Below, piece after piece: positions 25,135-38,095 of a stretch of 64,000 nt of DNA. The position numbers and the translations under genes were made by a program. Positions within the stretch are counted from its first letter, which is position 1. Every line of letters begins with the position of its first letter. Below the pieces are notes generated by a model that saw nothing but the letters and a program-made list of their open reading frames with translations, searched no databases and was not told the origin of the DNA. The stretch covers positions 248,001-312,000 of the forward strand of contig NZ_JHQL01000003.1 of assembly GCF_000712975.1 (NCBI RefSeq), given 5' to 3'. The stretch comes from Vreelandella neptunia (GTDB lineage Bacteria; Pseudomonadota; Gammaproteobacteria; Pseudomonadales; Halomonadaceae).

Positions 25135-26955
25135 TTATGCTTGGCTCGCCAACCACCCCCGCCAGCCGCCAAACTGAGTGATCTCCTCTGCTTCTCCGCC
25201 TTCATTGAGCGCGCCTGCGGTGCAGATAAAGCCGCATTTCCAGCTGCCGTCGGCAAGTTCTACCTGACCTAAGCCGAGCGGGGCGGGAATACCTGCCAAG
25301 AAGCTACCGAGGGTTTCGATAGGCAGGCGCCAAACCTCCACTTCAATGGCTTGGCCATTGTCATCACGTAGCATTGCAGGGCGTTTAGGGGCCCCTCCCG
25401 CCAGTGCAAACAGTTTATAGCGCGGTGCGCTGTGGGTGACGCTGACCAAGGTGCCGCCCCGCTGGGTCAACTGGTGGTTAAGCGCTAAGCCCTGTAGGTG
25501 TGCACCGCATACCACCAGTTCCATGCTGCCATCTTGGGCGGCGATGGAGAGCTCCGCTAATGGCGGGTGCGGGTGGTCGGTGGCGCCTAACGGCAGCATA
25601 AGGCGCTGTTCAAGGGCGCGAGCGAGGGAGAGTAACTCCAAATCAGCCAATGCTGGACCAAACAGGGTGACGCCAATGGGTAGGCCGCGCTCGCTAAAGC
25701 CGACGGGCACGGCAAGCGCGCTGTAGTCGAGCAAGTTCATAAAGTTGGTCCAGGTGCCCAGGCGCGAGTTTACGCCAATAGGGTCTGCCGCTACCTCTGC
25801 TTTGCTAGGGTGCGTGACGGTCGTGGGGGAAAGCATGACATCCACGTGGCGGATTAACGCGTCGGCTTGGCGTTTGTACTCAGCAAGTTGATAGCGCGCA
25901 TCAAACGCATCCACCGCCAGCGGTGTTGCTCCCCCCTGGGTGATTTGGAAGGTGACGGGATGCACGGCATCGGGGTGGCTCTGCATCAGCTCACGAATCA
26001 CATGATAGCGCTCAGCGACCCAAGGTCCTTCGTAAAGTAAGCGCGCTGCTGCCAATAAGGGTGAACAGTCTAGCTCGACTTTTTCACCGCCAATAGCTTC
26101 CAACTCTGCAATTGCTAGGTGCATACCCTGGGTATACGCAGCATCGGTTTGCCACTGCGCTTCTAGCGGCACGCCAAAGCGGAACGCTGCCGGTGCTTTG
26201 CCATAACGCTTACCGTGAATGGCAAAGTCAACGCGTTTTGACCAGGCGCACTGATCATCATAAGCGGCGGTAATGCCGAGCACGTTGGCCGCATCGTCGG
26301 CGGTAAGCGTAAATAGGCTGATCGTATCCAGAGTGGCGCAGGCGGGCACGACGCCGCGGGTGCTAAGCAGCCCGAGGCTGGGTTTAACACCATAAAGGTT
26401 GTGGAAGCAGGCGGGCACCCGTCCAGAACCGGCCGTGTCGGTGCCCAGTGCAAAGCTGACCATGCCCGCCGCCGTCACCACTGCCGAGCCGCTGCTGGAA
26501 CCACCCGGCACCAAGGTGGGATCAAAGGCATTAGCGGGCGTGCCATAAACCTCCAGCGCCCGCTCGCCCACTAAGCCAGTCGCAAACTGATCTAAGTTAG
26601 TTTTGCCCAAGGGGATAGCGCCTGCAGCGATTAACTGCTGTACCACAAACGCACTTTCTGATGGCGTATAGGCAAATGCTGGGCTGCCTGCTGTTGTCGG
26701 TATATCCGCAAGATCAATGTTGTCTTTAAGCGCAAAAGGGATGCCGTATAGCGGCAATGACTCAGGTGATTCGCCTTCTAGGCGCTGCAGGTAAGGTGCT
26801 AACTGTTCACGGGTTAAACGGGTAATCCAAGCCGCATCGTGGCCATAGACGTCAGCCGCTGCCAGTAATTGATCGATTAGGTCAGACGGCGTTAATTCAC
26901 CGCTGCGATAGGCGGTGTGTAGGCTAGCAATATCGAGTGAAATCGGAAGTGTCAT
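25135..26955 (-). CDS. atzF: Allophanate hydrolase
   Basis: A 606-residue two-domain enzyme that hydrolyses allophanate to ammonia and CO2, the last step of carboxylase-dependent urea or guanidine use. The amidase-signature domain (about 1-450) shows the catalytic Lys in IPFALKDNIDLADIPTTAG and the Ser-cisSer-Ser region in PGGSSSGSAVV, then GTDTAGSGRVPA. The C-terminal AtzF-type domain (about 465-600) is present and ends FGGWRGWL. It is the last gene of the operon and overlaps the preceding unknown gene by ATGA. With the carboxylase and deiminase pair upstream it completes the route to ammonia. Confidence 0.93.
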   Translation of the reverse strand: MTLPISLDIASLHTAYRSGELTPSDLIDQLLAAADVYGHDAAWITRLTREQLAPYLQRLEGESPESLPLYGIPFALKDNIDLADIPTTAGSPAFAYTPSESAFVVQQLIAAGAIPLGKTNLDQFATGLVGERALEVYGTPANAFDPTLVPGGSSSGSAVVTAAGMVSFALGTDTAGSGRVPACFHNLYGVKPSLGLLSTRGVVPACATLDTISLFTLTADDAANVLGITAAYDDQCAWSKRVDFAIHGKRYGKAPAAFRFGVPLEAQWQTDAAYTQGMHLAIAELEAIGGEKVELDCSPLLAAARLLYEGPWVAERYHVIRELMQSHPDAVHPVTFQITQGGATPLAVDAFDARYQLAEYKRQADALIRHVDVMLSPTTVTHPSKAEVAADPIGVNSRLGTWTNFMNLLDYSALAVPVGFSERGLPIGVTLFGPALADLELLSLARALEQRLMLPLGATDHPHPPLAELSIAAQDGSMELVVCGAHLQGLALNHQLTQRGGTLVSVTHSAPRYKLFALAGGAPKRPAMLRDDNGQAIEVEVWRLPIETLGSFLAGIPAPLGLGQVELADGSWKCGFICTAGALNEGGEAEEITQFGGWRGWLASQA

Positions 26956-27683
26956 TGTGGGTTCCTTAATGAGGCTTGTATGACGCGCGAAGGGTGGGGT
27001 AGGTTGATACCGTTGTCATATTTCCAACCTTCTCGCCAAGGCTGCGTAGAAAGCACAACTTGCCAACCCGCCTGGGTGCGCTGTAAGAAGTCAAAACACA
27101 GGCTAGCGCGCCAGCGCAGAGTCTCATCAGCTAAGCGGTTTAAAGGCGTAAACAAGGTATCTGCACGTATGTTTGCAGGGCGTGGAGTAATCGCCATGGC
27201 GTAGTCGCCAAGCTGCAGCCAGCAAAGTTGCCCCCGTTCGTCGGTGCGCACTGTCTCCTTGGGGATGTCGCGAGTAAGCCGTTGCCAGTGCTCCACATAG
27301 CGCCCGGTAGGATGGCTCTCTTCCAGCGTGTCATCGTCAATCCAGCGCAGTAGGCCCACATCCCGCTCTAAGCCAGGGCAAAGGTCCTGATAGCGGTGCC
27401 ACGTACACAGTTCGCCTTCAATCTGGGTAATGCCTGCAAAAGCGCTAAGGCTTGCTAGCCATTCAAGCTGGGCGTGGTCGCATGAGGTTAAGCACGTGAT
27501 GCCCGAAAAATCAGGTAGCGTTGCCGGTAAGCGCAGGTCGGCATGCCAGTACTGGCCCTGCAGCCAGAAAACCCGTGAGATAGTATCGGCCTGTTGGTAG
27601 GGCGACATGGCAGGCTCGGCATATAGCGTTCGCTGCCAAACGCCTCGATAGCGATTGGCAACTGCTGGTAGTGGAGCGCTCAT
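26952..27683 (-). CDS. Unknown protein encoded in the guanidine operon (possible lipocalin-like barrel)
   Basis: 243 residues, no signal peptide and no enzyme motif that I know. Tryptophan- and tyrosine-rich alternating segments such as RYRGVWQRTLY, SRVFWLQGQYWHADLRLP, QIEGELCTWHRY and DDTLEESHPTGRYVEHWQRL suggest a beta-barrel. They faintly recall the Hri1-type calycin fold, which is a guess. Both ends overlap neighbours by ATGA (dioxygenase upstream, atzF downstream), so it is coupled into the operon and expected to act with it. A ligand-binding or substrate-handling role is possible; the function is unknown. Confidence 0.6.
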   Translation of the reverse strand: MSAPLPAVANRYRGVWQRTLYAEPAMSPYQQADTISRVFWLQGQYWHADLRLPATLPDFSGITCLTSCDHAQLEWLASLSAFAGITQIEGELCTWHRYQDLCPGLERDVGLLRWIDDDTLEESHPTGRYVEHWQRLTRDIPKETVRTDERGQLCWLQLGDYAMAITPRPANIRADTLFTPLNRLADETLRWRASLCFDFLQRTQAGWQVVLSTQPWREGWKYDNGINLPHPSRVIQASLRNPQ

Positions 27684-28759
27684 CGCTTTGGCGCCTCGTT
27701 TTGCTGCTCTTTGTGCTTGCCGTGCTGGCCTAGGCTACCGACTTCACGAGCGCCCTCTGGGAGTGTGATGTCGCCTTTTGCTAGACGCTCACGCAGGTAG
27801 CGGAAAGTTTGGATGGTTTGCGCGTAAAGGTGGTCGCCTGCTTTTAGCGACGCATAGTTAGCCTGGCCATGGCGCTTGACTAATGCAGGTAGCGGCGCGA
27901 CCTCAGTATGGTAATCGCAGGCGAAAAACAGCGGAAACGAGTAGCGTTCTTCTTTTACCTTGCGCACCCGGTGGGACGTTGCCACAAACTCTCCATTGCT
28001 CCATATTTCCAGCATATCGCCAATATTCACCACTAAGGCATCCTCGCGAAACGGCACGTCGATCCACTCCCCAGCACCGTTCATCACTTCCAGCCCTGGC
28101 GCCGTGGGTAGCAACAGAGTGAAGCACTCGTAGTCGGTATGCGCGCCAATGCCTTGGGTGTCTTGTGCATCAGGGTTGTAAGGGTAGTGAATCAGGCGCA
28201 GCTGGCTGGGCGGTTTGGTGACATGGCGCAGCAGCTGCTGCTCTTCCAGCCCTAATGCCAGGGCAAAGCCGCCCATTAGTGCGCGGCCCACCTGGTAGAC
28301 GGCATCGTAATAGGCGGCCACTGGCGCTCGGAAACCGTCAAGCGCTGGCCAGGGGTTAGGGCCAAGGAGTGGGGTGCCAGCCACAACGTCGGGATCGTTT
28401 TCGGGTAACTCAAAGGCGAGGTCAAACGCTTCTTTCATGTCGGGTTTTGTGGGGTCAGGAGACTCTTCACCGGGTGGTACATAGCCACGATGGTGATGAT
28501 AATGGCCTATATAGCGCTGCATCTTGGCGTCTGTTGACTGGGCAAAGAAGCGCTTGGCTTGTGTGATCAGCCCATGACGCAGCGAATCATCAATACCGTG
28601 CCCAACCATTTGAAAGAAGCCAACCTCGCGCGCAGCGCGGCCAAGGGCGTTGGCAACGGCTCGACGCGCGGCGGCATTGCCATGCAGTAAAGGGTCAATA
28701 TCGATCACGGGAATGGTTTGGAAGTCGGCTAGGCGCGGATCGGCGGGAAGCGGGCTCAT
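27680..28759 (-). CDS. Isopenicillin N synthase-like Fe(II)/2-oxoglutarate dioxygenase in the guanidine operon
   Basis: 359 residues of the IPNS/2-ODD family. The N-terminal domain starts IPVIDIDPLLHG and has GFFQMVGHGID. The double-stranded beta-helix carries the iron triad: His and Asp in GAHTDYECFTLL (near residue 217) and His in FVATSHRVRKV (near 273). It is followed by the co-substrate-binding Arg-x-Ser in RYSFPLFF. Its gene overlaps the carboxylase (ATGA) and the unknown protein (ATGA). Plant relatives hydroxylate homoarginine and so release guanidine. By analogy this enzyme could liberate guanidine from a substituted guanidine, but the substrate is not shown by sequence. Confidence 0.88.
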   Translation of the reverse strand: MSPLPADPRLADFQTIPVIDIDPLLHGNAAARRAVANALGRAAREVGFFQMVGHGIDDSLRHGLITQAKRFFAQSTDAKMQRYIGHYHHHRGYVPPGEESPDPTKPDMKEAFDLAFELPENDPDVVAGTPLLGPNPWPALDGFRAPVAAYYDAVYQVGRALMGGFALALGLEEQQLLRHVTKPPSQLRLIHYPYNPDAQDTQGIGAHTDYECFTLLLPTAPGLEVMNGAGEWIDVPFREDALVVNIGDMLEIWSNGEFVATSHRVRKVKEERYSFPLFFACDYHTEVAPLPALVKRHGQANYASLKAGDHLYAQTIQTFRYLRERLAKGDITLPEGAREVGSLGQHGKHKEQQNEAPKR

Positions 28760-31700
28760 GAGCTTGCCTCCTTGCTATCAGTGAGCACTACCAGCGGCTG
28801 CCCAGGCGCAACTGAAGCGCCTTCGCTTAGCGGTAGCCTAACCACTCGGCCTGCACAGTGAGAGGTGATCTCCACTTCCATCTTCATAGATTCTACCAGG
28901 GCCACTGCTTGGCCAGCACTGACCTGCTCACCCTCTTGGATAAGCAGTTTCCACAGGCTACCGGTGACAGGGCTTTCTATGCCTAGCTCGTTATCATTTA
29001 ACGCGGTTACCTCGGCACTTTGCGGTGTTTGGTCTTCAAAGGTGAACTGCCCATTGGCGCGCCAATCGGCCATCTCTGCCTGGAAAGCGGCTTCGCGTTT
29101 GCTGCGAAAAGCCTCAATGTCAGCGGCGTTTTTGTCGATATCGGCTTGGTAATCCGCTAAACGGAAGTGAGTCGTTTCAACTGATAGCTCAAAACGCCCG
29201 TGGGGAAAGTCGCGGCGGATTTGTTCAAGCTCGTCGTGGCTGACCTCATAAAAACGCAGCTGGTCAAAAAAGCGCAGAAGCCAAGGATTTTCAAAGTGTG
29301 CTGTTGTGCGGTAGCGGTTCCACATCTGTAGCGTGCGGCCGACAAACTGGTAGCCACCAGGGCCTTCCATGCCATAAACACATAAATACGCGCCGCCAAT
29401 GCCAACAGAGTTTTCTGCTGTCCAGGTGCGGGCGGGGTTGTATTTGGTAGTCACAAGACGCTGGCGAGGATCCAGCGGTGTGGCGACTGGGGCTCCCAGA
29501 TACACGTCGCCCAGGCCCATCACTAGGTAGCGGGCATTGAAAACGATATCGCGCACGGCCTGTTCACTTTCAAGAGCGTTAATGCGGCGAATAAAGTCCA
29601 GGTTGCTGGGGCACCAGGGGGCGTCCGGGCGCACGCTGCGCTGGTATTTATCGATGGCTTCCTGGCAGGAGGGGTCATCCCAGGAGAGGGGTAAATGCAC
29701 CACCCGAGAGGCAACTTCCAGTGACTCCACGTCGACGAGGGCCTGCTCTGCGGTGAGCAGGTGGGCGAGCAACTCATCAAGGCTCAGCTCACGCGGCTCG
29801 TAATGCACTTGCAGCGAACGGATACCGGGGGTTAATTCCCGTAGGCCGGGAAGCGAGTGCTCCTGCAGCCACAGCATCCAGGCATGGACACGAAAGCGCA
29901 GCGCGATATCCAGTTCCATCGCGCCAAACTCGATAAGCAGGAAGTCATCCCCAGCACGACGGTAAACAATCCGTTCACCGGCCTGTTCGGCGGGCACGTC
30001 GCGCAAAACGGAGCTGTCGCGCTCTTCATCAATACACGGTTGGTTTGGCTGAGCAGCAAGTGCTTCAAGCTCGGCGAGCTGGCGATCTTCGAGTGCGCGC
30101 GCCGTGGCAAGGCTTACTGGCACAAAGCGTACTTTGTCACCCGCGCTGAGCTGGCCTAACTTCCAGCGTTCGGCGCGGATTACCGTCGCTGGGCAAACAA
30201 AGCCGCCTAGGGAGGGGCCGTCAGGGCCAAGAATGACCGGCATATCGCCGGTAAAGTCGATGGTGCCAAAGGCGTAAGCGTTGTCGTGAATATTAGAGGG
30301 GTGTAAGCCCGCCTCGCCACCGTCGGCTCTGGCCCACTCGGGACGGGGGCCAATCAGCCGTACGCCTGTGCGGCTGGAGTTATAGTGAACCTCCCAGTGG
30401 TGATCAAAAAAGCGCTCAACATCGTTATCGGTGAAAAAGTCCGGCGCGCCGTGGGGGCCGTAAAGTACGGCTACCTGCCATGTCTTACCGCCGTCTTGAT
30501 CGCCGAAGGTGGGAATTAGCGCCTCTTCCAGCTTAACCGCCGATGTGGGATCAAACGGTGGCAGGTCGAGCATGTCGCCGCTGCGCAAAGCGCGTCCGCC
30601 GTGGCCGCCAAATTGGCCCAGGGTGAAGGTACTGCGCGAGCCCAGGTAGTGGGGGCACTCAATGCCGCCACGTACCAGCAGGTAAGCGCGGGTGCCCGTA
30701 GTGGCTTTGCCTAGTGTCAGGGTAGAACCGGCGGCGATATCTAGCACTTGCCAGAAGGCGACCGTTTGACCATCCAGCGTGGCGGTCATGTGGGCACCCG
30801 TTAGCACAATTTGGCTGGCACGATGAAAGCGCAGCGTCGGGCCGGTCAGGGTGATTTCAAGCCCGGCGGCTTCGACTGGGTTATCCAGCAGGCGGTTGCC
30901 AAGCCGAAACGACCAGTCGTCGAAGGGGCCAGAGGGCGGAACGCCGACATCCCAATGACCCTGTCGACCGGGGAAATCCTGAAGAGTGGTTAACGTGCCG
31001 GGGGCGATAACTTCAATGGCTGGCGGTGCCCAGTCAAGGGTTGTCAGCCAGTGGGTGTCCAGGTCAGCACGCTGAAAACGCTCGGCGCGCAGTACATGGG
31101 CAAGCCAAGTTCGGTTGGTGGTAATGCCGTAAACGCTGGCGTTGTCCAGCGTACCGGCTAACTGGTCGATAGCCGCCTGGCGACTTGAGCCATGAACAAT
31201 AACTTTGGCCAGCATGGGGTCAAAGAGCGCTGAGATTTCCAGCCCAGCTTCCAAGGCGTGGTCGATACGCAAGCCCTCTGCGTGCGGAAAGTTCACCTCG
31301 GTGAGCAGCCCGGCGCTGGGGCGAAAATCATGGGCAGGGTCTTCGGCGTACAAGCGCGCCTGTACCGCGTGACCGTGAGGCGTGAGCTGCTGGGTCAGCG
31401 TGGCAAGCGGGTGAAGTTGATCTGCCCCTAGGCGAACCATCCATTCAACAATATCAATGCCATACACCATCTCTGTCACGCCGTGCTCCACTTGGAGCCG
31501 GGTGTTTACTTCTAGAAAATAGAAGGCCTGGCGCTGGGTGTCGTAGATAAACTCAACGGTGCCGGCACTGCGATAATTAACTGCCTTACCCAACGTGACG
31601 GCGGTAGCGTGTAGTGCGCTGCGCACTGTTTCTGGTAGGTTAGGCGCAGGGCACTCTTCCAGTACCTTTTGATGGCGGCGCTGGGTAGAGCAGTCCCGCT

Positions 31701-32373
31701 CGCCAAGTGCCACTACGCTGCCGTTGCCATCACCGAAGAGCTGTACTTCCAGATGGCGGGCACTAGCAATATAGGCTTCGAGAAACACGCCACCATCGCC
31801 AAAGTTACGCTCGCTCAGGCCTTTTACCGAATCAAAGGCGCGCTCAAGTTCGGCGGGGGTTTGGCATATCTGCATACCAATACCACCACCGCCTGCGGTG
31901 GATTTGAGCATCACAGGATAGCCAATTTGCTCGGCGTTGCTAAGGGCGTCGTCAATGCTTGAGAGCAGCGCTGAGCCGGGTACCAACGGTACTCCAGCCT
32001 GCTTGGCAATGGCGCGGGCTTGGTGCTTTAAACCGAACTGCTCAATCTGCTCCGCGGTAGGGCCTAAAAAGATTAGCCCAGCGGCGTCGCAGGCGGTAAT
32101 AAAACGCGTGTTTTCAGACAGAAAACCATAGCCGGGATGCACCGCTTGGGCACCGCTTTGCTTGGCAATGGCGATCAGCTTGTCGATGTTGAGATAGGTA
32201 TCGCAAGCCGGGCCCGCGCCAAGCGAATAGGCTTCATCGGCCTGGTGGACGTAGGGGGCGTCGCGGTCGGCATCGGCATAAACCACCACGCTGCCAACAT
32301 TCAGTGCTTTTAGCGTGCGTAAAATGCGTGCGGCAATAGCACCGCGATTGGCAATAAGTACTTTGCTAAACAT
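28756..32373 (-). CDS. Biotin-dependent guanidine carboxylase (urea carboxylase family)
   Basis: A 1205-residue enzyme. Biotin carboxylase domain (about 1-450) starts [17 protein letters not shown] and has the ATP-grasp loop [11 protein letters not shown] and [15 protein letters not shown]. The carboxyltransferase region (about 455-1110, KipI/KipA-like) contains [33 protein letters not shown] and [22 protein letters not shown]. The C-terminal biotin carrier has [10 protein letters not shown]. The riboswitch and the deiminase pair argue that guanidine, not urea, is the main substrate. The frame opens at 32424, but MFSKVL at 32373 matches the family. The ribosome-binding site is weak and two hairpins lie just upstream. 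Confidence 0.93.
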   Translation of the reverse strand: [1205 protein letters not shown]

Positions 32374-32395
32374 GTGAGGTTGCCTGCAAACAAGG

Positions 32396-32440
32396 GCGGG
32401 TCGTCCCGCAGGTTGTTTGGCCATCTAGGGTCGTCCCTAG
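32396..32440 (-). repeat. Twin hairpins with identical tetraloops between UAAP2 and the carboxylase
   Basis: Two perfect inverted repeats 15 bases apart. GCGGG/CCCGC (32396-32409) and CTAGGG/CCCTAG (32425-32440) both enclose TCGT on the plus strand, ACGA in the minus-strand transcript. They fill most of the gap before the carboxylase start and lack a U-tract, so they look like RNA-processing or stability elements rather than terminators. Confidence 0.6.
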
Positions 32441-32450
32441 GGCGAGTCGC

Positions 32451-33089
32451 TTACTGCCAAACCAACAGCTCAATGGGCGTGGGGTTGTAGCCGTTGCAGG
32501 GGTTGTTGAGCTGGGGGCAGTTGGAGACCAGCACAATGACATCCATCTCAGCGACCATCTCAACGTATTTGCCTGGTGCGGAGATACCATCTTCAAAGGT
32601 CAGTTTGCCGTCAGCGGTAACGGGCACGTTCATAAAAAAGTTGATGTTGTGAGTGATGTCCCGCTTGGTCAGGCCGTATTCTGGAAAGTTGGCAATGGCC
32701 TGCATCCAGTTGTCTCGGCAGGAGTGCATGTGGCGTTTTTCCAGATCGTAGCGCACGGTATTGCTTTCGCTGGCGCAGGCGCCGCCTAAGGTGTCGTGGC
32801 GACCGCAGGTGTCGGCGGTAATGGTTAGCATGCCTCGCCCTTCGCTCGACATGAGTGTGGTGCCAGCGGTGAGGTAGACCGCACCCTGTTCGCGCACGGT
32901 GTCCATAGCGCTATAGCGCTCGCTGGTATCTTCAGCGCTAAAAAATAGCGTGTCGGCGGCCTGGTTGCCTTCTAGGTCGAGAATGCGCAGGGTTTGGCCG
33001 CGCTTCACGGTACCAATGTAATGGTCGCCTGCGTTGACCGTGGTGCGGGTTAAGGCGTTTTCGGGGCGCAGAGTGCTTTCAATAATCAT
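32451..33089 (-). CDS. Urea-amidolyase-associated protein 2 (carboxyguanidine deiminase subunit)
   Basis: A 212-residue protein of the UAAP2 family (DUF1989-type fold). Family text: [23 protein letters not shown] near the N-terminus, then [36 protein letters not shown] and [24 protein letters not shown]. The conserved Cys and His residues likely bind zinc. With its partner UAAP1 it corresponds to CgdA/CgdB, which hydrolyse carboxyguanidine to allophanate; I do not assign which letter it is. It follows UAAP1 by 14 bases and precedes the carboxylase. Confidence 0.88.
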
Positions 33090-33103
33090 TGGGCGTTTCC
33101 CCT

Positions 33104-33826
33104 CTATAGGCCGAGGTGGTAAAGGCGGTTATTGGCAAAGCCGCGTGCGTTTTCGGGGCGTGACACGTAGCAAGGGTCATCTTCTGTGGGCGGTTCGGCG
33201 GTGCCGAGTGCGATGTCTACACCGCGACGGGGGTAGTTGGCGCTGGGGTCAAGTGGGTGGGGGCAGGTGTGAAGCAGTACCAGCGTGTCCATCTCCATGC
33301 GCAGTGTGACGCGACTACCTGGCTGGCAGTGGCCGCTGATATAGCGCAGTTTTCCCTCATCGTCGCTCTCTACCCGGGAAAAGAGATTAAGGTTGGCGGC
33401 CATATCCCGACGGCCCAGCCCGTACTTGGCGAGTTCTACTAAAAAGGCGTCAAAGCCGGTGCGGGTCCAGTCGTTGTGCGCCTGCTGATAGCTCACCGGT
33501 TGCCAGCCCTTCTTTAACAGATGATGGGGCATTAGGTTACCGCCGACGCTGTCATGCCAACCCAGGCTGTCTTGCGTAATAGAGGCAAAAATACGCCCCA
33601 TATCCGAGTAAAGGCAGTGCCCTTGGGTAAGCTTAAAGGTGTGCTGACACTTCAAGGTGTCGGGCAAATTTAGCCGTTCCAACAGGTTTTCCGGGTTGTA
33701 GCATAAAAGCCCCACGTTACTGTCGGCCTGTTGAGCGGTTAGGGTGAGCGTGGTACCCCGGCGCAGGCGCAGCGACCAGTGATGCCCACCGGGTAAAACA
33801 GTGGTGTAATGAGCGTCGTTCTTCAT
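33104..33826 (-). CDS. Urea-amidolyase-associated protein 1 (carboxyguanidine deiminase subunit)
   Basis: A 240-residue UAAP1-family paralogue of the next gene, with the parallel features [54 protein letters not shown] and [16 protein letters not shown]. The paired paralogues always travel with guanidine/urea carboxylases and are the two subunits of carboxyguanidine deiminase in characterised systems. Its start overlaps the end of the ABC ATPase gene (ATGA), tying transport and catabolism translationally. Confidence 0.88.
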
Positions 33827-34617
33827 AGCAGCGTCTCCTGGGTGTGGGTTTGCAGGCCGCCTTGTTGCAGCGCTTCTTTGAGAGCGGTTGAAGGGCGGTC
33901 TCGGGAGATAGGCAAGTCATAGGTAATCGTGGCACCAAACGCTTCTGGGGCTTGGGGGTCGTGGCGGGTTTTGTCGAATACCCACAGCCGGGTGCCTAGT
34001 TCAAAGGCTTCTTTAAGGTCGTGAGTGATCATAAAAATCGTGAGCTGCTGCTCTTGCCACAAGCGGTTGATGAGCCCGTGCATGTCCTGGCGAATACCTG
34101 GGTCAAGCGCGCCAAAAGGTTCATCGAGTAATAAAATGCGTGGCCGCATCATCAGCGCTTGAGCGATGGCTAAGCGCTGCTGCATACCGCCGGAAAGCTC
34201 GTGGGGGTATTTGTTTAACGCGTGGCTCAGGCCAACTTCGTCGATGCGAGCGCGTGCCTTTTCAATAGCGCGGCGTTTGGCGGCACCAAAGCTTTTACCC
34301 AATAACTTGGCGCTGTGTAGCTCGTCGGCAATCATGACGTTGCCAAGCACGGTGAGATGGGGAAAGACAGAATATTTCTGAAAAACAACGCCTCGGTCGG
34401 GGCCTGGCTCGTTGGGAATGGGCTTATCATCCAGCATTAAGCTGCCCCGCGACGTTGCTTCTGTGCCCAGCAGCATTTTAAGAAAGGTGGTTTTCCCGCA
34501 GCCAGAGGCACCGACCAGGGTGACGAACTCTCCAGGCTCGACGCTAAAATTAAGATTTTCGAGCACCACATGGTTACCGTAGTGCTTCTCTAGCCGTTTG
34601 GCAGCGAGCAGGCTCAT
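33823..34617 (-). CDS. ABC transporter ATPase, guanidine/urea-type importer
   Basis: A 264-residue ATPase of the SsuB/TauB type. Walker A GASGCGKTTFLK (near residue 35), signature LSGGMQQRLAIA, Walker B ILLLDEPFGALDPG and the switch His in MITHDLKEA are all intact. It overlaps the permease gene upstream and the UAAP1 gene downstream, both by ATGA. It would energise import of the guanidine-related substrate captured by the binding protein at 35502-36590. Confidence 0.93.
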   Translation of the reverse strand: MSLLAAKRLEKHYGNHVVLENLNFSVEPGEFVTLVGASGCGKTTFLKMLLGTEATSRGSLMLDDKPIPNEPGPDRGVVFQKYSVFPHLTVLGNVMIADELHSAKLLGKSFGAAKRRAIEKARARIDEVGLSHALNKYPHELSGGMQQRLAIAQALMMRPRILLLDEPFGALDPGIRQDMHGLINRLWQEQQLTIFMITHDLKEAFELGTRLWVFDKTRHDPQAPEAFGATITYDLPISRDRPSTALKEALQQGGLQTHTQETLL

Positions 34618-35441
34618 GATTTATCTCCTTCACCTGCGTGGTACCAGGGAAAGGCTATGCGCGACACCCAGGCCAGCAGTTGGTCAAGCAGAAAGGCCAG
34701 CAGCGTTATCCACGCTACGTAGGGCAGAATGACGTCCATGGAGAGGTAGCGACGGACCAGAAAAATGCGGTAGCCAAGGCCTTCTTGTGCAGCAATCGCT
34801 TCGGCGGCGATCAGAAAGAGCCAGGCGGTGCCCAGCGCCAAGCGGGTCGCGTTGAGCAGGCGCGGCGTCAGCTGAGGCAGTAACACTCTTAACAGCACCT
34901 GCCAGGAACTGGCACCCAGAGTTTGCGCTTTAATTAACTGTTCATCGGGTAGCCGTAAAGCGTGGCCCTGAAGGTCACGAATAAGAAAGGGCGTTACCCC
35001 AATCACGATCAGCGCAATTTTAGCGGCCTCGCCGGTACCAAAGGCAATAAACAGAATGGGCAGGATGGCCATCGGCGGAATCAGTGAGGCGACGGTGACC
35101 AAGGGCGAAAGTTTGGCTCTCACGATGGGTAGACCGCCGTTCAAGATGCCCACAATTAAGCCAATCAACGCACTGATACCAACACCAATCACAATGCGTT
35201 CCAGGCTGGCAAAGGTGTCTGTCCACAGCACAATCTGGCCGGTGCGAACGTTCTCAGCAGTGGCTAAGTGGTAAAAGGAGCTCGCCATCGTTGAAGGCGT
35301 GGGCAGTAGGCGGTCGTTGGGGTTTTCCGCCAGTCTTGCGTTGGAGAGGCTCATATAGAGCATCGCCAGTAGCAAAAAAGGCAGTAAGCCTAAAAGCCAG
35401 CGGCTACCCCGTGAGGGCGTTAGGTTAATTAATCGCTTCAT
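34614..35441 (-). CDS. ABC transporter permease, guanidine/urea-type importer
   Basis: About 275 residues with six predicted membrane segments. The EAA loop that contacts the ATPase is seen as EQLIKAQTLGASSWQVLLRVLLPQLTPRLLNA (about 180-211), of the SsuC/TauC type. ATG 35441 is chosen; the frame also offers GTG at 35453. The gene is 60 bases after the binding protein and overlaps the ATPase gene by ATGA. Confidence 0.92.
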   Translation of the reverse strand: MKRLINLTPSRGSRWLLGLLPFLLLAMLYMSLSNARLAENPNDRLLPTPSTMASSFYHLATAENVRTGQIVLWTDTFASLERIVIGVGISALIGLIVGILNGGLPIVRAKLSPLVTVASLIPPMAILPILFIAFGTGEAAKIALIVIGVTPFLIRDLQGHALRLPDEQLIKAQTLGASSWQVLLRVLLPQLTPRLLNATRLALGTAWLFLIAAEAIAAQEGLGYRIFLVRRYLSMDVILPYVAWITLLAFLLDQLLAWVSRIAFPWYHAGEGDKS

Positions 35442-35501
35442 GGCGGTGTCCACACAAAATGAGAGCGGGGGGAGTGGCGCTCGCCACTCCCATGACGCGT
35501 A

Positions 35502-36590
35502 TTACTGAGCGTCGAGATATGCTTGGGTAAAGCTTGGGTCAAAGCGCAGCTTTACATTGCTCTCATCGCCAAAAGTACCGGCGGGGGTGGTAATGCCGAC
35601 TACACCAGCATTGGGTGCCATATCGCCGAGTAGGCCATGGGTAAAGCTAAACTCGGCTACTCGCTCCATCGTATCGAGCAACTCGGGGCTTTCCATGAGT
35701 TCGATGGCTTGTGCAGGATCGGTATACAGGTATGTGGCCGCAAGCTGTTGCCGGTAGCCTTCGACGTTAGTGCCTGCCGCATCCGCCATGATGGTGAGCG
35801 CATGTTCATCATCAGCTTCAATCAAGCCCATGACTTCATACCAAGCGCCGACTAGTGCATGGCCAAGCGACGGGTTATCCGCCAGGGTTTGGGTGTTGAC
35901 GACCATCATGTCGAGAATCTCCCCAGGAATTTCCGCTGAGGTATACACCACGTGGCTGTCAGGCATGTCAGCAATAGCGCTTAACTGCGGGTTCCAGGCG
36001 GCCACTGCCTCCGTGGTGCTGCTGGAAAACAGCCCCACAATGTCAGCATCTGACGTGTTGACCGTTTCAATGTCGCGTTCGGTAAGGCCGACACTTTCAA
36101 GGGCGCGAGCAAGGAAGTAATGGGAAACGCTAAACTGGACAAGGTTAACCCGGCGACCTTCAATGTCGGCGAGGTCATCGCTGCCTTTTAGCACAATGCC
36201 ATCGTTACCGTTTGAGTAGTCGTTAATAATGAGTGCGGTAGAGTCGACGCCGCTGGCAGAGGGGATCGTCAGTGCGTCCATATTCGTCATCGCACAGCCG
36301 TCAACGTTACCCGAGGTAAATTGATTGATCGACTCGACATAGTCGTTGACTTGCACCACATCGATACTTATGCCGTATTCGTCGGCCCACCTATCCACTA
36401 CGCCTTCAACGTCGGCATAGGCCCAGGGCATCCAGCCGGCATAAATAGACCAGCAAACGCTGAATTCATCGCGCTCTTGAGCCTGGGCGGGCGTGACCGT
36501 CATCGGAGAGGTAAGGCTAGCAGCCAGAAGAGCGGCAGGTAGCGAAGCGAACGGTAAGTTTTTTAGAGAAATACGAGAGAGACGGGTCAT
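35502..36590 (-). CDS. ABC transporter substrate-binding protein, guanidine/urea-type importer
   Basis: A 362-residue periplasmic protein. It has a signal peptide (about 1-37, cleavage near TPAQAQ) and an NMT1/SsuA-like type II binding fold with VCWSIYAGWMPWAYAD, VQVNDYVESINQFTSGNVDGCAMTNMDAL and IEGRRVNLVQFSVSHYFLARALE. Family members are linked to urea carboxylase operons. It is the first gene of the operon: the ribosome-binding site GGAGG is 5 bases from ATG 36590 and the guanidine-I riboswitch lies just upstream. A guanidine ligand is inferred from that context. Confidence 0.9.
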   Translation of the reverse strand: MTRLSRISLKNLPFASLPAALLAASLTSPMTVTPAQAQERDEFSVCWSIYAGWMPWAYADVEGVVDRWADEYGISIDVVQVNDYVESINQFTSGNVDGCAMTNMDALTIPSASGVDSTALIINDYSNGNDGIVLKGSDDLADIEGRRVNLVQFSVSHYFLARALESVGLTERDIETVNTSDADIVGLFSSSTTEAVAAWNPQLSAIADMPDSHVVYTSAEIPGEILDMMVVNTQTLADNPSLGHALVGAWYEVMGLIEADDEHALTIMADAAGTNVEGYRQQLAATYLYTDPAQAIELMESPELLDTMERVAEFSFTHGLLGDMAPNAGVVGITTPAGTFGDESNVKLRFDPSFTQAYLDAQ

Positions 36591-36608
36591 AGAAGCCTCC
36601 AGCGGCTA

Positions 36609-36656
36609 GAAGAAAAACTCGGGGGCGTCGGCGCATGGCTGCACCTTATCCTCCCG
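36609..36656 (-). terminator. Riboswitch expression platform, candidate intrinsic terminator
   Basis: On the minus strand CGGG (36656-36653, inside the conserved riboswitch end) can pair with CCCG (36623-36620). An inner GGTGC (36645-36641) can pair with GCGCC (36634-36630), and TTTTT follows at 36617-36613. Forming this hairpin would consume the conserved GCCCGGGAGG of the aptamer, as expected for a transcriptional switch turned on by guanidine. Pairing was worked out by eye. Confidence 0.5.
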
Positions 36657-36780
36657 GGCTTTTGTCCCGCCGTGTAACCTTGCTTTACCGCTTTCAATCA
36701 GTAAGTGCAAGGTCGATTGCTCTTGGACCAGTCACGTCATCAGGGGCAGAACATTGATGGCGTCGGAACCCTAGCGATCT
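36648..36780 (-). promoter_or_regulatory. Guanidine-I (ykkC) riboswitch
   Basis: Read on the minus strand, the conserved ykkC blocks occur in order: CTAGGGTTCCG (36774-36764), GGTCCAAGAG (36729-36720), a P3 stem formed by ACCTTGC and GCAAGGT, ACGGCGGGAC (36673-36664) and AAAAGCCCGGGAGG (36663-36650). This order and these strings are diagnostic of the guanidine-I class, which turns genes on when guanidine binds. It lies directly upstream of the ABC binding-protein gene and so controls the nine-gene operon down to 25135. Confidence 0.93.
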
Positions 36781-36824
36781 ATTGGAAACTCAATTGTGTG
36801 GCAGCCTACGCAGCCGATACCCCG

Positions 36825-36856
36825 TTTATTACCTATCTACTTTATTACCTATCTAC
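36825..36856. repeat. Perfect 16-bp tandem repeat upstream of the riboswitch
   Basis: TTTATTACCTATCTAC occurs twice in immediate succession (36825-36840 and 36841-36856), followed by a decayed third start TTTGTTACTTATATAT. It sits about 45 bases upstream of the riboswitch, in the AT-rich region that must hold the guanidine operon promoter. Confidence 0.85.
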
Positions 36857-37072
36857 TTTGTTACTTATATATAGAAAGCAAAATTGCGGCCGATTAGGTT
36901 TAATGCTTTTGATTTCATAAAGTTGGCTGGAATTGGTGCTCGCCCTGGCAGTAGGGCTGCCGCGTTAGCTGCTTGGTGATGGTGCGCGTGAGGCGATTAT
37001 TGCACCGATTTAACACGCGTGTGTTTTGTCGTAAGCGCCCTTGCTGGGGGCTATTGGGCGCGAACGTGGGTA
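36857..37072. other. Intergenic stretch between guanidine operon promoter region and epmB
   Basis: This is the remainder of the only gene-free region over 300 bases (36591-37072). Besides the riboswitch and tandem repeat described separately, I see an AT-rich segment to about 36920, then GC-richer sequence with a GCGCCC...GGGCGC inverted repeat (37038-37064) lacking a T-tract. No tRNA, convincing gene or mobile element was found in it. Confidence 0.5.
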
Positions 37073-38095
37073 TCAAAGCGGTGTCTTGCTGGCTCTGCCG
37101 GGCACTTCGCGCACCAAGCGGGGCATTAAGAAGCCGGGCAAGTGTTCAAGCAACTGGTTAACGAGCGTTTTAGCTTCTGAATCGGGAACATCAAAGTGGG
37201 CGGCGCCTTGTACGGGGTCGACCACATGCAGGTAGTAAGGCAGCACCCCCGCGTCAAAAAGGCGCTCAGAGAGTGCTGCCAGGGTGCTAACGTTATCGTT
37301 GATGCCTCGTAGCAACACGCTTTGGTTTAGCAGTGTGACGCCTACCTGCTTTAAGCGAGCACAGGCATCAACGACCGCTTGGTCTATTTCGTTGGGGTGG
37401 TTGATATGCAGTACGACCACTTTTTGTAAGCGGGTGTTTGCGAGCCAATCCAATAACGCGTTATCAACACGGTCCGGTATGACGACGGGTAGCCGCGTAT
37501 GTATGCGCAGCCGCTTAAGATGCACAATACTGTCGAGCTGCTCGACAAGCCACGCTAACTGGCGGTCGCTGGCAGCCAGTGGATCGCCACCAGAGAGTAT
37601 GGCTTCCTGGATAGTGTTGTCGGCTTGCAGATAGTCAAGCGCGGCGTGCCACTGGCTTCTGGAAGGCGAGCTTTCGCTATAGGGAAAGTGGCGACGAAAA
37701 CAGTAGCGGCAGTTAATCGCACAGGCTGGACTGGCGATTAGCAGTACGCGGTTTGCATACTTATGAATCAGCCCTTTCACGGGTTGATGATCAGCTTCTT
37801 CAAGGGGATCAGTAACGTAACCGGGTGGGGTTAGCGTTTCATCGCCAAGGGGTAGCACTTGGCGCAGCAGCGGGTCATCCGGTGCGTTAGGGGGGATACG
37901 CGCCAGATAAGCTTCAGGCACACAGATCTCAAACAGCTGATGGCCTGCATCGGCGCCAGCTAACCACTGATCGCTCAAGCCTAGGCGTTGACAAAGGACA
38001 GCAGGGTCGCGGATTGCTCGGGAAAGCTGCTGTTGCCATGAGGCAGTCGGCTGGCCTGAGGTGTGCTGACCAGCAATAATGATGTTCTCCTGCAA
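37073..38095 (-). CDS. epmB: EF-P beta-lysylation protein EpmB (lysine 2,3-aminomutase family)
   Basis: A radical-SAM, PLP-dependent enzyme of about 340 residues that converts (S)-alpha-lysine to (R)-beta-lysine for EF-P modification. The cluster motif CAINCRYCFRRHFPY, the ILSGGDPLAASD segment, LRIHTRLPVVIP and the C-terminal SKTPL are typical. The frame opens with ATG at 38119, but a TTG at 38095 sits 6 bases after a strong AAGGAGG (38108-38102). I therefore take TTG as the start; it also fits the family length. The gene is divergent from efp. Confidence 0.94.
   Translation of the reverse strand: MQENIIIAGQHTSGQPTASWQQQLSRAIRDPAVLCQRLGLSDQWLAGADAGHQLFEICVPEAYLARIPPNAPDDPLLRQVLPLGDETLTPPGYVTDPLEEADHQPVKGLIHKYANRVLLIASPACAINCRYCFRRHFPYSESSPSRSQWHAALDYLQADNTIQEAILSGGDPLAASDRQLAWLVEQLDSIVHLKRLRIHTRLPVVIPDRVDNALLDWLANTRLQKVVVLHINHPNEIDQAVVDACARLKQVGVTLLNQSVLLRGINDNVSTLAALSERLFDAGVLPYYLHVVDPVQGAAHFDVPDSEAKTLVNQLLEHLPGFLMPRLVREVPGRASKTPL

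Follow-up and report, generated by a model that had tools for sequence, protein, structure and literature searches.

Operons that serve the assimilation of guanidine are known from several bacteria, and one of them, the gca/mgdH operon of Vreelandella boliviensis LC1, was characterized experimentally in 2025 (PMC12508155). In that strain, which grows on guanidine or methylguanidine with strongly raised operon proteins, MgdH hydroxylates methylguanidine (KM 0.16 mM, kcat 19.6 per s), and MgdL accelerates the splitting of N-(hydroxymethyl)guanidine in dependence on Asp49 and Arg51. Its guanidine-I riboswitch binds guanidine with an apparent KD of 44 µM and did not bind methylguanidine in the tested range, and its guanidine-II riboswitch binds guanidine and methylguanidine with apparent KD values of 93 µM and 83 µM, respectively (PMC12508155). 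Enterobacterial operons (Raoultella, Erwinia, Klebsiella) carry guanidine-I before the importer and Cgd genes and guanidine-II before the carboxylase and allophanate hydrolase genes, as does the locus studied here, and the available part of that report makes no mention of mgdH or mgdL in them (PMC12186494). Here, we analyzed a 64,000-nucleotide stretch of the Vreelandella neptunia genome (the window; contig NZ_JHQL01000003.1, positions 248,001 to 312,000), the minus strand of which carries an operon of this kind. A system of this type for methylguanidine and guanidine is therefore already known and published.

The window was compared with V. boliviensis LC1 (L004 in our numbering of loci, one of 12 found with the window's MgdL). 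The two share all nine genes and their order, a guanidine-I riboswitch upstream, a guanidine-II riboswitch between cgdB and gca, mgdH and mgdL (mgdHL) between gca and atzF, residues D49 and R51 of MgdL, and the signature residues of the carboxylase Gca. The window almost certainly holds an operon that assimilates nitrogen from guanidine and methylguanidine and is orthologous to that of LC1, based on both riboswitches, gene order and identity, MgdL D49/R51, Gca D706/D956, the identical guanidine-II hairpins, a terminator-like hairpin in the leaders of all 12 loci and a formaldehyde-removal gene pair in the genome. The MgdH and MgdL reactions, the riboswitch affinities, growth and induction were shown in V. 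boliviensis and would extend to the window by orthology. Nothing contradicting this assignment was found in the sequence analysis, in which roles were assigned by orthology.

A preliminary description of this DNA had proposed a nine-gene operon with mostly overlapping junctions. Nine co-directed open reading frames (ORFs) indeed follow guanidine-I at 25135-36590, with 4-base overlaps at five of the eight junctions; the remaining gaps are 48, 14 and 77 bases, and the last of these, between cgdB and gca, contains guanidine-II. Reading from the leader, the first three genes encode the parts of an ATP-binding cassette (ABC) importer, namely a substrate-binding protein (35502-36590; TIGR03427, 484.9 bits, cut-off 333.9; 88% identity to V. 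boliviensis, to which the percentages below also refer) with the NCBIfam name 'putative urea ABC transporter', a permease (34614-35453; PF00528; 96%) and an ATPase (33823-34617; PF00005; 95%). The two adjacent carboxyguanidine deiminase subunits each exceed their NCBIfam cut-offs: a UAAP1 (DUF1989) protein, CgdA by position (33104-33826; TIGR03425, 293.6 bits, cut-off 205.95; 94%), and a UAAP2 (DUF1989) protein, CgdB by position (32451-33089; TIGR03424, 337.3 bits, cut-off 284.7; 96%). They are followed by gca, encoding the guanidine carboxylase, a biotin carboxylase that NCBIfam names urea carboxylase (28756-32373; TIGR02712, 1795.4 bits; 86%), by mgdH for the methylguanidine hydroxylase, a 2-oxoglutarate (2OG)/Fe(II) dioxygenase (27680-28759; PF14226 and PF03171; 85%), by mgdL for the N-(hydroxymethyl)guanidine lyase, annotated "hypothetical" (26952-27683; 69%), and by atzF for the allophanate hydrolase (25135-26955; TIGR02713, 717.7 bits, cut-off 511.05; 88%). 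The family matches thus bear out the importer, the two UAAP/Cgd subunits and the allophanate hydrolase of the preliminary description. The path that it called complete had the right core, but its seven named genes left out mgdH and mgdL, and the V. boliviensis experiments extend the substrate range from guanidine to methylguanidine (PMC12508155).

An Rfam scan of the window (cmscan, gathering thresholds) returned two RNA matches, guanidine-I and guanidine-II, both on the minus strand. The guanidine-I aptamer heads the operon at 36649-36785, where the earlier description had placed it, and passed the Infernal/Rfam check with 82.2 bits (RF00442; gathering score 63; E 4e-13; full model 1-107). 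At E <= 0.001, the 3.80 Mb genome has no other RF00442 match, and the conserved blocks of the aptamer align with those of five relatives, V. boliviensis among them; the match covers 137 nt in the window versus 122 nt in V. boliviensis, being longer in a variable hairpin. An intrinsic terminator is predicted on the same strand at 36610-36659 as the OFF structure, since the 5' arm of the hairpin is the 3' end of the aptamer (GCCCGGGAG) and the hairpin is followed by U5. The hairpin has a folding energy of -21.4 kcal/mol (z -2.57), and 5 of 200 shuffles were equally stable. A hairpin with at least four U and the same aptamer overlap is present in 12 of 12 folded leaders (the window and L004-L014), four of them with a weaker stem (-15.7 to -16.3). 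A simple terminator scan detected no terminator at 36610-36659, probably because the stem is interrupted. Guanidine bound to guanidine-I would prevent terminator formation and thereby turn on the whole transcript, as was also inferred for V. boliviensis (PMC12508155). Just upstream of the riboswitch, two tandem copies of AAAGTAGATAGGTAAT stand at 36828-36859, a possible regulator site.

Guanidine-I is thus real, but the earlier description overlooked an internal guanidine-II riboswitch at 32396-32440, just before gca. This element consists of two hairpins, both with ACGA loops, and scores 40 bits against a gathering score of 32 (RF01068); the genome has no second RF01068 match at E <= 0.001. 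Both hairpins are letter-identical to those of V. boliviensis, with a slightly different linker, and the fold of 32373-32445 has a z of -3.28. The mechanical ORF start of the carboxylase, 32424, lies within the riboswitch and would make the second hairpin coding. We prefer the ATG at 32373 as the predicted gca start, because the Biotin_carb_N and TIGR02712 models begin at residue 1 or 2 and because GCAGG (32387-32383) stands 9 bases ahead of it. A candidate expression platform spans 32383-32412 on the minus strand, in which CCUGC (32412-32408), overlapping P2, may pair with this GCAGG as the Shine-Dalgarno sequence. The yCUGC and GCAGG motifs occur in 12 of 12 loci (six CC, six UC), which is weak evidence for the pairing because only one side of it changes and the minimum-energy folds differ. 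Ligand binding to the internal guanidine-II would free the ribosome site of gca, and the two presumed switching mechanisms agree with the proposal made for V. boliviensis (PMC12508155).

The window MgdH is aligned to the syntenic V. boliviensis enzyme over residues 1-351 at the identity given above. It carries H207-x-D209...H263 and R272-x-S274, motifs that we take to have their customary roles. Its best PDB match is an ethylene-forming 2OG dioxygenase (9ovh, E 1.5e-58; chain label 2-oxoglutarate-dependent ethylene/succinate-forming enzyme), whereas the reaction described for V. boliviensis MgdH is oxidation of methylguanidine at its methyl group, and the available text does not report ethylene formation (PMC12508155). 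MgdL, of which the window genome has a single copy, matched nothing in Pfam or NCBIfam at E <= 0.001, and its identity to V. boliviensis MgdL extends over residues 1-219. Residues D49, R51, W40, Q42, W95, E122, Y129, E131 and W133 are kept in 31 of 31 MgdL-family sequences. An AlphaFold2 model built from 12 sequences, with which the question of a beta-barrel was asked, has low confidence (mean predicted local distance difference test score, pLDDT, 59.9), and its best PDB match is a lipocalin-family protein at a weak E of 5.3e-3, none reaching <= 1e-3. No fold was drawn for MgdL because of this pLDDT and because the PDB matches are weak and partly lipocalin-like. In L011 (10001-10771), MgdL has an ATKSS-type amino-acid repeat inserted near residue 26.

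Based on these assignments, a pathway can be proposed for the window. The ABC importer would take up guanidine or methylguanidine, and MgdH, using 2-oxoglutarate, O2 and Fe(II), would hydroxylate methylguanidine at its methyl group. The resulting hemiaminal would be split by MgdL to guanidine and formaldehyde, guanidine would be carboxylated by Gca with ATP, one ammonia would be removed by the two Cgd subunits, and AtzF would convert allophanate to ammonia and CO2. Formaldehyde may be cleared by a glutathione-dependent dehydrogenase and an esterase encoded elsewhere in the genome, where the genes for an S-(hydroxymethyl)glutathione dehydrogenase (716.6 bits) and an S-formylglutathione hydrolase (432.1 bits) adjoin each other (C4:322522-324546).

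The automatic names, TIGR02712 urea carboxylase and the binding protein's urea transporter label, would make this a urea carboxylase or urea amidolyase operon, a reading that we consider extremely improbable. Guanidine carboxylases are distinguished by Asp at Kluyveromyces lactis positions 1330 and 1584, according to the available part of the source (PMC11410670). With K. lactis numbering derived from the offset between PDB chains 3va7 and 5i8i, window D706 falls in the column of K. lactis Asn 1330 and D956 in that of Asp 1584, and both signature columns hold Asp in 28 of 28 Gca homologues (39 loci searched, 11 of which gave no row). The K. lactis urea amidolyase of these two chains shares the multidomain biotin carboxylase family with the window enzyme (1143.5 bits) and differs from it in having Asn at 1330. 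Its carboxylase is fused to an allophanate hydrolase, which is a separate gene in the window. The urea reading is further opposed by the two guanidine riboswitches at the head of and inside the operon, and by MgdH and MgdL being encoded within it. In V. boliviensis, moreover, levels of the operon proteins rise strongly on guanidine as well as on methylguanidine, both of which support growth, with no knock-out reported in the available text (PMC12508155). Urea as the substrate was rejected because of the Asp706 signature and the riboswitches, position 1330 lacking the Asn of a urea enzyme. Guanidine rather than urea as the predicted carboxylase substrate is thus supported, and the preliminary description was right to hold to it despite the urea carboxylase names. 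It is also very unlikely that the window MgdH and MgdL act mainly on another N-alkylguanidine, with methylguanidine as a side substrate. In its favor, the window MgdL is merely 69% identical to the tested enzyme, V. boliviensis MgdH accepts N,N-dimethylguanidine too (PMC12508155), and relatives of both proteins adjoin another kind of importer, so that these folds may serve other substrates; yet MgdH is 85% identical, the operon context is shared with V. boliviensis, and the dimethyl intermediates are not acted on by V. boliviensis MgdL (PMC12508155). The catalytic residues do not decide the substrate, because all 31 relatives keep them whatever their neighbors. Several points weigh against the main assignment, of the operon to the assimilation of guanidine and methylguanidine. 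Of all its members, MgdL is the least conserved; the importer specificity is putative in the window and V. boliviensis alike (PMC12508155); and the minimum-energy folds around guanidine-II contain other pairings and no block of the ribosome site. In addition, no sigma-70-like promoter was found by a scan of 36560-37075, and no sigma-54-like site was found near the operon start (17 pattern matches in the window, a count reached by 100 of 100 shuffles).

Another alternative concerns the second riboswitch, which could be a dedicated methylguanidine sensor that arrived with mgdHL, as the V. boliviensis guanidine-II binds methylguanidine as well as guanidine and its guanidine-I does not (PMC12508155). 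This bears on the distribution of the elements among 275 genomes of the family, in which RNAs were searched with stricter filters, so that weak matches were lost, and MgdL was counted rather than MgdH, which was checked in selected fetched regions only. Guanidine-I was found in 53 genomes, guanidine-II in 95 (88 above cut-off) and MgdL in 27, of which 24 have close relatives (46-100%), two have distant paralogues only and one is marginal. Guanidine-II lies 4.2-4.7 kb downstream of guanidine-I in 50 of the 53 guanidine-I genomes (49 above cut-off; G135 below), and mgdL follows further down the same contig in just 23 of these 50, with one more (G243) on another contig. In the remaining three (G139, G017 and G250), no downstream guanidine-II was found; the G139 region has all pathway genes, and guanidine-I is near a contig end in G017 and G250. 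Twelve operon regions were fetched, in which mgdH and mgdL are present together in seven (L080-L086) and both absent in five (L087-L091), and guanidine-II is still present in four of these five, one below cut-off. Methylguanidine binding has also been reported for other guanidine-II RNAs in the available part of an earlier source (PMC5486947). A dedicated sensor is therefore unlikely, and guanidine-II as an addition tied to mgdHL is unsupported by the family survey. Rather, a new observation suggested by the survey is that more operons have the two-riboswitch layout than have mgdL (50 versus 23 of the 53 guanidine-I operons). The mgdHL pair resembles a cassette added to an operon that, even where the pair is missing, often carries two riboswitches; the order of events is inferred from the counts. 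Separately, guanidine-II (E <= 0.001) occurs without any guanidine-I in the genome in 44 of the 275 family genomes.

The position of mgdHL varies in the family. The pair stands between gca and atzF in L080, L085 and L086, as well as in the window relatives showing all three genes intact, and after atzF in L081-L084. Among the relatives, about 6 kb separate mgdL and atzF in L007 (10865-16787) and L009 (10682-16783), and this insert holds an oligopeptide-type ABC importer and a GntR-type regulator, both named from their sequences. The operon of L014 (Halomonas olivaria TYRC17) aligns only in pieces in several genes, with broken frames or assembly errors, and L003 is a short contig.

Beyond the family, an MgdL profile matched 7 of 369 genomes of the class and 15 of 398 genomes of the phylum (G000 and G251 in both), and 17 other genomes, outside the family loci, were fetched around the match. 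An MgdH-like gene is near the lyase in nine of these 17 loci (L112, L117-L119 and L123-L127). Besides this gene, the stretch contains cgd or gca genes in seven of the nine and only binding-protein genes in L118 and L125. Guanidine riboswitches score above cut-off in L112, L123, L124, L126 and L127, whereas no Rfam riboswitch was found in the stretches of L117, L118, L119 and L125 despite their MgdH-like neighbors. L113, L114 and L128 have neither an MgdH neighbor nor a guanidine riboswitch in the stretch, and for L128 the neighborhood search gave no lyase hit either. As the genera named for extended operons are Salinisphaera and Vreelandella (PMC12508155), these loci suggest that extended operons are spread more widely. 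L118 (3457-8642) has a tandem pair of MgdH-like genes and two genes for binding proteins next to its MgdL relative, and after the MgdL relative of L113 (7130-16510) come genes similar to those for EamA, an ABC importer, creatininase and UAAP1.

Relatives of MgdL were also seen in two modules of which no description was found in the part of the literature searched. Module (a), present in 7 of the 275 family genomes (L061-L067), has a distant MgdL (29-36% identity) directly beside a second MgdH-like protein, which is 41-43% identical to the window MgdH in the three aligned and is in two frames in L065. PotA-like and PotD-like importer genes adjoin the pair, and a PhyH-type dioxygenase is present in four of the seven loci. 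Judged by contig coordinates, in which L004 matches G201, V. boliviensis LC1 is among these genomes (pair at L061 9487-7686; catalytic Asp and Arg kept), and the second pair was not found in the window genome. No Rfam family reached its cut-off in the seven loci (16 kb read). Module (b) is found in four genomes of the window's class (L116, L120, L121 and L122) and, in reduced form, in a fifth (L115). On one strand, it begins with guanidine-I, followed by a binding protein, a fatty-acid-desaturase-like protein and two short-chain dehydrogenases (one in L122), and it also includes EamA, creatininase, isochorismatase and the MgdL relative, which has a permease and an ATPase next to it in L120-L122. 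These names come from Pfam for eight L120 and two L116 proteins and from similarity for the rest. L115 retains guanidine-I, the desaturase-like gene, the MgdL relative and EamA, with no hits for the binding protein, dehydrogenases, creatininase or isochorismatase. A metallo-beta-lactamase-fold gene is present in L115, L116 and L120 and gave no hit in L121 and L122. No MgdH-like gene lies in the stretch of any of the five module (b) loci. Two of the genomes have one elsewhere (G687, 57% identity; G1003, 40%), and none was found genome-wide in G769, G515 and G381. The desaturase-like protein could be a hydroxylase that releases guanidine sensed by the riboswitch. Judging from these gene neighborhoods and from the catalytic residues, which the relatives in both modules keep, MgdL may be one branch of a wider hemiaminal-lyase family, each branch for a different oxygenase and N-alkyl substrate, although we advance this idea tentatively and regard it as somewhat doubtful.

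In summary, the annotation of this V. neptunia locus is corrected from an operon for a 'urea carboxylase' and a 'hypothetical protein' to a probable operon for the assimilation of guanidine and methylguanidine that carries two RNA switches. The survey suggests that mgdHL occupies two different positions and that MgdL-type lyases belong to other guanidine-linked gene sets as well, and the value for follow-on work lies in the MgdL family. If its members do serve other substrates, enzymatic cleavage of the stable hemiaminals that N-dealkylation leaves behind would be a general strategy and not an isolated example.

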